DNA of 45,227 nt from an uncultured Traorella sp. (lineage in GTDB: Bacteria; Bacillota_I; Bacilli_A; Erysipelotrichales; Erysipelotrichaceae): positions 1 to 45,227 of the forward strand of contig CALUVS010000017.1 in NCBI GenBank assembly GCA_944324265.1. The letters are read 5' to 3'. The notes under the pieces are model-generated. The model saw only the letters and a list, made by a program, of their open reading frames with translations, was not told the DNA's origin and did no database searches. The stretch's first letter is position 1. The number at the start of each line of letters is the position of its first letter. This document shows, in pieces, positions 3,827-25,060 of the stretch. The position numbers and the translations under genes are program-made.

Positions 3827-4576
3827 TTGAAAGCTCATTTTGATGAATTATCACAGATTATTTCAGATTTAGAAACCGATCAGACAAACTGATTAAACAG
3901 CAAAACAGCTGCTGAAAAACTAGAAAAGAATGGTGAGAATAAACTGAAAGAAAAGAAAAAGAAAACAATGCTTCAGCGCTTTTTTGATCAGTTCAAAGAT
4001 GCCATGATCATTATCTTGATTATTGCGGCTGTTATTTCATTTGCCATTGCCTTTGCGGAAGGTGAGCCAAGTGAATTTGTGGAACCTGTTTTGATTCTTT
4101 TGATTGTCATTTTGAATGCAGTCAGGGATGTATTGCAGGAAAGCAAAGCCGAGAAGGCATTGGATGCATTGAAAAATTTATCTGCACCGCATGCCCGTGT
4201 CATTCGTGAGGGCAAGGAACAAATTATTGATGCTTCGAAGCTTGTTCCGGGCGATATCATTCGTTTGGAAGCCGGTGATTTCGTTCCGGCGGATGCTCGC
4301 TTGATTTTTTTCTGTCAGCTTGAAAAGTGAAGAATCGGCATTGACGGGTGAATCTGTTCCAGCAGTAAAGATGCTTCCGCGGATGTCAAAGAAGATGCCG
4401 CCTTGGGAGATCGTTCCAATATGATTTTTTCCGGCTGCAGCATTACCTATGGTACAGCTTCAGCGGTTGTTACGGCAACCGGAATGAATACGGAAATGGG
4501 AAAAATTGCCAATCTGCTGAGCAATGAAGAAGATTCACAGACACCATTGCAGAAAAAAATACTTAGAGGCAATTGA
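3827..4576 (+). pseudogene. Remnant of a cation-translocating (calcium-type) P-type ATPase
   Basis: The reading frame starts at TTG 3827 behind AAAGGATG and encodes the N-terminal cytosolic segment, M1/M2 helices and part of the actuator domain of a P-type ATPase. The recognisable parts are KLKEKKKKTMLQRFFDQFKD, VPGDIIRLEAGDFVPADARL and LTGESVP. Four lesions are visible. An in-frame TGA at 3890-3892 stands where the family has Gly. One extra T in the seven-T run at 4305-4311 shifts the frame, and one missing base near 4366-4370 restores it. The protein then stops at 4574-4576, after about 250 codons against roughly 870-900 for the family. The DKTGT phosphorylation motif and the nucleotide-binding domain are gone, so no pump can be made. 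Confidence 0.9.
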
Positions 4577-4656
4577 ATCATAAAAAATTAATCTTAAAAC
4601 TACTTTCCAATTAATATACAAAACTGCGTTAAAAATCTTTCATATGAATTGTCTTT

Positions 4657-4696
4657 AAAATCACTTCACGCATATAAATGAGTGAGGTGATTTTTT
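4657..4696 (+). terminator. Hairpin with T-run overlapping the dprA ribosome binding site
   Basis: AAAATCACTTCAC (4657-4669) pairs with GTGAGGTGATTTT (4682-4694) with a single G-U pair and a 12-base loop, followed by T residues. It looks like an intrinsic terminator for upstream transcription, but its 3' arm contains GAGGTGA, the dprA Shine-Dalgarno sequence, 6 bases before the ATG. If the hairpin forms in a dprA message, the ribosome site is masked. Confidence 0.6.
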
Positions 4697-5431
4697 ATGC
4701 GCAAACAAATCTTATCGTATGCGATTACTTATCAAGGAGAATATCATGCTATTGCGCAGGCTATTCAGAAAAATGAGCGCTGGCATGAAATTGAATATAA
4801 CGGTGATTATGTCACCATTTTGGATGAGCATTATCCCAAAAAATTATTTGAACTGGAAAAGCCGCCTTTCATCTTATTTTACAGCGGTGATCTTTCTTTG
4901 CTGGAAGAAGATCTTTTATGTGTGATTGGTTCTCGTCAGCCCTCTTGTCTGGCTCAAACTCACATTCAGGAATTAATGACGCATCTGAATGATCGATGGA
5001 CGATTTTGAGCGGATTGGCAAAGGGTGTAGATGGTTTGGCCCATGAGGCTGCCTTGCAGCATCATAGAAAAACAATTGGAGTCATTGGATGCGGTCTGGA
5101 TATTATTTATCCGAAAAGCAATGCATCTTTGTATCAAGCCATAAAGAATAATGGATGCATTGTTTCAGAATATCCCAATGGCTGTCAGCCATTGGCCCAT
5201 CACTTTCCTTGGCGAAATCGTCTTTTGGCAGCTTTATGCCGAAAATGTGTTGTCATCGAAGCTAAAAAGAAAAGCGGTACTCTGCTGACAGTAAACTATG
5301 CCAATCAGTTGGATCGACCGATCTATGTGTTTCCGCATCGTTATGAGGATGACTTTGCTTTCGGCAGCAATCAGCTCATTCAATTAGGCTGCAGTCTGAT
5401 TTTGGATAAAGAAGATATTCAAATCATATAA
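4697..5431 (+). CDS. dprA: DNA processing protein DprA (Smf), short form
   Basis: DprA binds incoming single-stranded DNA during transformation and loads RecA. The Rossmann-like core is clear: CVIGSRQPS near residue 76, ILSGLAKGVDGLAHEAAL near 98-115, then VIGCGLDIIYP, FPWRNRLLAALC and KSGTLLT. At 244 residues it is shorter than typical DprA (about 290-370). It has only a reduced N-terminal region and no C-terminal winged-helix (DML1) domain. It precedes topA as in Bacillus. The start is supported by GAGGTGA 6 bases upstream, which lies in a hairpin arm. Whether the organism is competent cannot be told from this window. Confidence 0.93.
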   Translation: MRKQILSYAITYQGEYHAIAQAIQKNERWHEIEYNGDYVTILDEHYPKKLFELEKPPFILFYSGDLSLLEEDLLCVIGSRQPSCLAQTHIQELMTHLNDRWTILSGLAKGVDGLAHEAALQHHRKTIGVIGCGLDIIYPKSNASLYQAIKNNGCIVSEYPNGCQPLAHHFPWRNRLLAALCRKCVVIEAKKKSGTLLTVNYANQLDRPIYVFPHRYEDDFAFGSNQLIQLGCSLILDKEDIQII

Positions 5432-24981: not shown

Positions 24982-25009
24982 CAGAAGATGCGAATCTTCT
25001 GTTTTTTCT
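24982..25009 (+). terminator. Intrinsic terminator after nrnA
   Basis: CAGAAGAT (24982-24989), loop GCGA, ATCTTCTG (24994-25001) and six T residues. It begins at the nrnA stop and ends where the next -35 box begins. Confidence 0.9.
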
Positions 25010-25037
25010 TGAAACGATGTTTAAGTTCGTATATAAT
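25009..25037 (+). promoter_or_regulatory. Sigma-A promoter for the MATE exporter gene
   Basis: TTGAAA (25009-25014), 17 bases, TATAAT (25032-25037): a near-consensus promoter. The predicted start near 25044 rules out the in-frame GTG at 25046 as a normal start and supports ATG 25061. Confidence 0.8.
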
Positions 25038-25060
25038 ACTTTTTTGTGAGTGAGGTACAT

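Follow-up and report, generated by a model that had tools for sequence, protein, structure and literature searches.

A hairpin at the dprA start in Traorella as a candidate read-through insulator with a competence-type promoter built into it

In a 45,227-nucleotide stretch of DNA from an uncultured Traorella sp. (Erysipelotrichaceae), which was analyzed as a whole and is called the window here, the Shine-Dalgarno sequence of dprA lies within a hairpin. The loop of this hairpin carries a -10-like box of a promoter motif that dprA shares with comGA and comEA across the family. With moderate confidence, we propose that the hairpin is a read-through insulator that is bypassed by a competence-type promoter built into it.

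Results

The Shine-Dalgarno sequence of dprA is paired in a hairpin

The gene at 4697-5431 (forward strand, as are the hairpin and promoter features described below) was correctly named dprA in the original prediction. Its product matches NCBIfam TIGR00732 with 212.9 bits (cut-off 191.15) as well as Pfam PF02481, and dprA matches were found in 56 of the 60 genomes searched. The comparison genomes include that of Traorella massiliensis (NZ_LT629969), which belongs to the same genus as the window.

Upstream of dprA, AAAATCACTTCAC (5' arm, 4657-4669) and GTGAGGTGATTTT (3' arm, 4682-4694) form a dyad of 13 pairs, including one G-U, with additional pairing from an inner CAU/AUG helix. The Shine-Dalgarno sequence GAGGTG (4684-4689) is within the 3' arm and pairs with 4662-4667, and a T-run (TTTTTT, 4691-4696) fills the space between it and the ATG at 4697. 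This layout is the one originally predicted, and structure prediction bears it out: the minimum free energy of 4650-4699, -18.1 kcal/mol, lies far below the mean of its shuffles (-5.4; z -5.99), and none of the 200 shuffles matches it. The wider fold of 4640-4720 gives a z of -3.44 (1 of 200 shuffles).

The dprA hairpin is not among the calls of a simple terminator scan, probably because the loop limit (3-8) and the five-T tail rule of the scan exclude it. When we searched Rfam with the whole window, there was no match at the hairpin; the sole match is the ribosomal protein L21 leader (RF00559, 37476-37547). A DNA search of the window's own 2.2-Mb genome with 4560-4720 returned the self match alone. 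Given this single copy, we set aside a genome repeat family as the source of the dyad. We likewise set aside the idea that the dyad marks the edge of a mobile insertion, given that no matching repeats were found at both ends.

From the open reading frames, we take the gene order in the window to be YlqF-like, rnhB, lysylphosphatidylglycerol synthase-like, AI-2E transporter, broken cation ATPase, dprA and topA. The immediate upstream neighbor of dprA is therefore not rnhB in this genome. In the other Traorella (4 of 4), the rnhB stop is 50-52 nt ahead of the dprA ATG. Because rnhB adjoins dprA there, we conclude that about 3.3 kb was inserted in the window genome. With spacing as short as in the other Traorella, a separate leader promoter could not be accommodated outside rnhB. 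The region 3830-4570 holds a remnant of a cation-transporting P-type ATPase (E1-E2_ATPase domain match at 3968-4327), with a frame that is broken near 4330 and truncated before dprA.

A promoter motif is shared by dprA, comGA and comEA

Read side by side, the dprA upstream regions of relatives show a T-tract, AGGA, about 17 nt, CGTATA, a Shine-Dalgarno sequence and the start. De novo expectation maximization (EM) on 71 non-redundant dprA upstream regions returned a promoter-like motif, TTTTTAGGA and TTCGTATATA separated by a gap of 11-17 nt. With short gaps, EM had initially converged on T-tracts, and this run was replaced by one with a narrower region and wider gaps. These settings were picked after inspection of the data; the transfer to comGA and comEA was done later.

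We rely on this transfer because the end of rnhB (TTTTAG with its stop) could inflate a motif derived from dprA only. Under the dprA-trained model, 31 comGA/comEA upstream regions outscore 364 control starts (Mann-Whitney p 2.5e-13), and 16 of the 31 are above the 95th percentile of the controls. The pattern C[GA][AT]ATA at -40 to -17 occurs in 23 of 70 dprA regions, 15 of 31 com regions and 13 of 375 controls, versus 1 of 70, 4 of 31 and 16 of 375 for the reversed pattern. The exact CGAATA core is present in 3 of 70 dprA regions. The family motif includes a T-rich stretch and marks dprA, comGA and comEA.

These counts depend on several filters. Regions of dprA at least 80% alike were merged (80 to 71), and one upstream region shorter than 60 nt was dropped, as was one dprA without a clear start before the counts. 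The redundancy filter removed the T. massiliensis locus (L158), for which values are reported separately, and the dprA of genome G010 is outside the 70 regions because it is absent from the 80 loci. The com rows dropped were comEA of G029 (start not found), comEA of G001 (contig edge) and comGA of G015; paralogue or PilT-like matches (L065, L067, L068) were also dropped before the counts. The control starts came from the same loci (391, some of them still dprA) and were cleaned to 364. A comGA query of 35 residues proved too short, recovering 5 of 33. In several relatives (L176, L178, L190 and L185), a terminator-like hairpin stands ahead of dprA and its T-run passes into the CGTATA box.

The promoter-like boxes of the window interleave with the hairpin

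Alignment with the family motif TTCGTATATA places the -10-like box of the window, CATATAAA, at 4671-4678, in the hairpin loop. Its core is CATATA, not the CGAATA of the ComX cin-box, and the window's own T-rich stretch upstream is weak. The -35-like box, TTGTCTTT (4649-4656), departs from the AGGA-type box of the family. We read it from its position as a lineage variant of that box because comGA and comEA of the same genome carry TTTTTGTTCTTTT and TTTTTGTGCTTTT, and the comGA of another Traorella carries TTTTTGTCAA. The family EM model scores 7.5 on the window and places its first block elsewhere, not on TTGTCTTT; a pattern made from the com promoters of this genome finds comGA and comEA, which are its own sources, and misses dprA. 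Within Traorella, the -35 box varies between TTGTC and AGGA/GGGA.

In the available text of PMC6560143, the pneumococcal ComX motif is TTTTTNHNNNYTHTTMCGAATADWNWRRD followed by the start. Counting 13 nt from the C of the window's box (C4671), as in that motif, we predict a transcription start at 4684, which would give a 13-nt leader that opens with the Shine-Dalgarno sequence. Because this position is inside the 3' arm, the predicted transcript from the embedded promoter would begin there and lack the 5' arm.

The predicted probability that the Shine-Dalgarno sequence is unpaired is 0.00 in the read-through RNA of the window but 0.48-0.76 if the RNA begins at -17 or -14, so read-through RNA would be mute or terminated and promoter RNA translated. 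In RNA from 4684, the Shine-Dalgarno sequence can pair weakly downstream (-7.6 kcal/mol, z -0.98). The original prediction that a transcript from upstream is masked or stopped agrees with these values, since such RNA carries both arms and the hairpin with its U-run could terminate it. Its further proposal, a switch by refolding, temperature or a bound protein, is not supported: the -10-like box is in the loop, and it looks likely that the 5' arm is not transcribed with dprA, which the prediction itself had named as the case against it.

The dyad is conserved in Traorella

The dyad and T-run are kept at dprA in all five Traorella examined, as the original prediction had suggested checking, and they also occur at dprA, comGA and comEA of one other genome (G010). 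DprA identity to the window is 52-56% among the Traorella compared, and the arm complementary to the Shine-Dalgarno sequence is retained in all five dprA regions, with one stem mismatch in one of them (L156). For the four non-redundant Traorella dprA, the duplex shuffle p values are 0.006, 0.015, 0.027 and 0.050, and the T. massiliensis duplex has -12.6 kcal/mol. In G010, the dyad is strong at comGA and comEA and weak at dprA (p 0.12; z -1.68). Similar hairpins with a Shine-Dalgarno sequence and a T-rich tail are found at two further dprA loci (L171 and L213), and these may have separate origins.

Of the 101 dprA and com regions taken together, 7 have a duplex p of at most 0.01, versus 4 of 375 controls (Fisher p 0.0025, uncorrected for kinship). 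A run of at least six T ending at most 3 nt from the start codon is found in 6 of 101 versus 0 of 375 (Fisher 8e-5, likewise uncorrected for kinship); the carriers are 4 of 70 dprA, which are the four non-redundant Traorella, and 2 of 31 com regions, both from G010.

The Traorella genomes G003 and G004 have 41 sites of the competence-type promoter, and 30 sites with loci were examined for the dyad. It is strong (p 0.01) at the two dprA sites (p 0.003 and 0.004) and at 0 of the 28 others, the next-best site having a p of 0.029. The promoter type therefore does not need the dyad.

Discussion

A proposed insulator with an embedded promoter

In the proposed arrangement, the -35 box would directly precede the 5' arm, which would itself serve as promoter spacer; the -10 box would fall in the loop and transcription would start in the 3' arm. 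Read-through RNA from the genes upstream, namely rnhB in other Traorella and the membrane-protein genes and ATPase remnant in the window, would have both arms, and would terminate before the ATG, hide the Shine-Dalgarno sequence, or both. RNA from the embedded promoter would be translatable, lacking the 5' arm. This promoter is probably read by an alternative sigma factor from the SigH locus, and DprA would then be made only while that factor is active. The logic is testable: dprA should be silent to read-through from an essential neighbor and free when its own promoter fires. Several observations weigh against this proposal: the divergent -35 of the window and its low score under the family model, the nearly invariant stem with its unfavorable covariation term, the stem mismatch in L156, the weak dyad at dprA of G010, the downstream pairing open to RNA from 4684, and the loss of rnhB as upstream neighbor in the window genome.

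Such logic, in which read-through RNA is silenced and own-promoter RNA escapes, is established for I-TevI and other genes of phage T4 and has been proposed for read-through of sigG. According to the parts of PMC2988022 available to us, RNA from upstream promoters of the T4 genes I-TevI, mobE, segB, e and soc folds and hides the Shine-Dalgarno sequence, and the late promoter is positioned to leave the 5' side out of the RNA that it makes, so that the Shine-Dalgarno sequence is free. We propose the same logic for dprA, where this pairing in upstream-started RNA is predicted. The T4 cases, however, are phage genes with late-promoter timing, whereas dprA serves competence in a bacterium, carries a T-run at its start and has a SigH/ComX-like promoter. 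For Bacillus subtilis sigG, the available text of PMC5942855 describes a large hairpin proposed to block translation of read-through RNA, which RNA from the gene's own promoter cannot form. Both hairpins thus belong to read-through RNA and are absent, for dprA by prediction, from own-promoter RNA. Unlike dprA, sigG is a sporulation gene with 20 or more pairs and, as far as that text goes, no competence promoter.

Alternative explanations

The explanation that best survives beside this one, though we consider it unlikely, is that the hairpin simply ends the upstream gene as an intrinsic terminator and happens to extend over the start of dprA, with masking as a by-product and the box in the loop for lack of space. 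The U-run directly after the hairpin fits it, many relatives have (by eye) an ordinary terminator with a T-run that merges into the promoter, and in Traorella the interval from rnhB to dprA is too short for another terminator. The stem, however, is A-U rich (5 G-C of 13 pairs), the loops of relatives are long, and the terminator scan passed over the hairpin. Moreover, comGA and comEA of G010 keep the dyad despite a separate terminator-like hairpin upstream (by eye).

We regard it as improbable that dprA is transcribed from a start upstream of 4657 with a leader that works as an RNA switch (a riboswitch, a thermosensor or a hairpin bound by a protein), as originally proposed. A hairpin masking the Shine-Dalgarno sequence is the usual form of such a switch, and production of a competence regulator is lowered by a 13-bp inverted repeat in the Staphylococcus aureus sigH leader (PMC3486894, available text). 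That repeat acts on the regulator's own leader, whereas the dyad described here would act on dprA and has the promoter inside it. Against a switch, the promoter motif is found across the family and falls in the loop, other Traorella lack space for a leader promoter, and Rfam is without a match at the hairpin.

Equally improbable is that the dyad works as DNA, as a repressor operator or a promoter spacer element. The arms are mostly invariant in the Traorella alignment, with little covariation (covariation term +2.32, unfavorable), and ACCT recurs in the spacer of several G010 sites. Such a role is at odds with the missing dyad at the other 28 Traorella sites examined that have this type of promoter, and with the stem-extending T-run, which lies outside the promoter and has no counterpart in the 375 controls. 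A chance dyad on an ordinary weak sigma-A promoter is the least credible account: TTGTCT and TATAAA are also compatible with such a promoter, and a sigma-A-like promoter near 25000-25040 scores high with the motif as well, but the fold has a z of -6.0 and recurs in all five Traorella despite the divergence of DprA.

A candidate sigma factor and a wider regulon

Returning to the insulator with its embedded promoter, the window genome encodes a divergent sigma-70 factor between two genes that we take to be rlmB-like and nusG-like, and this interval is the position of the SigH locus in Bacilli. A profile built from seven such proteins has matches in 21 of 21 genomes; the weakest best match is 8.4e-18, and the protein there is a candidate orthologue only. 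By text search, at least one rlmB-like or nusG-like neighbor is present at 15 of 20 sigma loci. Against TIGR02859 (SigH equivalog), the factor scores 39.0 bits in the window genome and 62.4 in G010, and the cut-off of 294.8 is not reached. We infer that this factor acts on the dprA/com motif. SigH-type factors drive competence genes in Lactobacillus sakei and S. aureus, according to the available text of PMC3364868 and PMC3486894. In the C-terminal region 4 of the sigma factor, L114, L119, L288 and L289 differ from L120 and L121 (Traorella versus other genera), and co-evolution with the -35 box is possible.

The layout of the ComX motif is close to that of the Erysipelotrichaceae dprA/com motif (PMC6560143). 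As far as the available texts go, the streptococcal ComX/SigX cin-box and the SigH genes of L. sakei have in common with it a T-rich stretch, a CGAATA-like box and dprA/com targets (PMC6560143, PMC4497675, PMC3364868). Unlike the cin-box, the box in Erysipelotrichaceae reads CGTATATA or GCATATATAA and is accompanied by a -35 of the AGGA type.

Patterns derived from the com promoters find 25 sites in G004 and 16 in G003 (reversed pattern, 0), and 15 in G010 (reversed, 3). Their matches at com genes are circular; the remaining sites are not. Among the products of the downstream frames are two families of repeated proteins that lack a Pfam match and look Rpn-like by eye. Others are small hydrophobic peptides, a helicase that we take to be ComFA, a PDDEXK_2/Rpn-type protein that matches PF12784 and falls below the cut-off of TIGR01784, and a protein resembling TnpB (PF07282, PF01385). 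Many of the G004 and G003 sites (L237-L266) precede repeated Rpn-like genes and frames for small holin-like peptides, and those of G010 (L267-L281) include the ComFA-like gene, PDDEXK_2 proteins and the TnpB-like gene. Several sites have near-identical upstream regions, so gene copying accounts for part of the site count. In pneumococcus, Rpn-type pseudogenes are also ComX-regulated (PMC6560143, available text).

We give somewhat less than an even chance to a broader reading, that of an apparently undescribed Erysipelotrichaceae competence regulon under a diverged sigma factor of the SigH locus. Promoter-fused terminators would insulate its core operons from read-through, a role that a promoter-containing hairpin would take at dprA of Traorella and at a relative's com operons. 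In T. massiliensis and relatives, the promoter type would have multiplied to dozens of sites, followed by repeated genes of the Rpn-type nuclease-like kind, by small toxin-like peptides, by a TnpB-like gene and by a pilus-like operon. Our literature search found no study of competence control in Erysipelotrichaceae, and the promoter motif and candidate sigma factor make natural competence testable in this family.

A survey, in its available text, reports that ComEC-domain proteins were lost in Erysipelotrichaceae (PMC6299819), and a search with PF03772 (ComEC) gave matches in 0 of 11 genomes. In the window genome, a 503-residue frame 3' of comEA (L113, contig C23) contains VGQGD...HEDSDHSGG and looks like a diverged ComEC.
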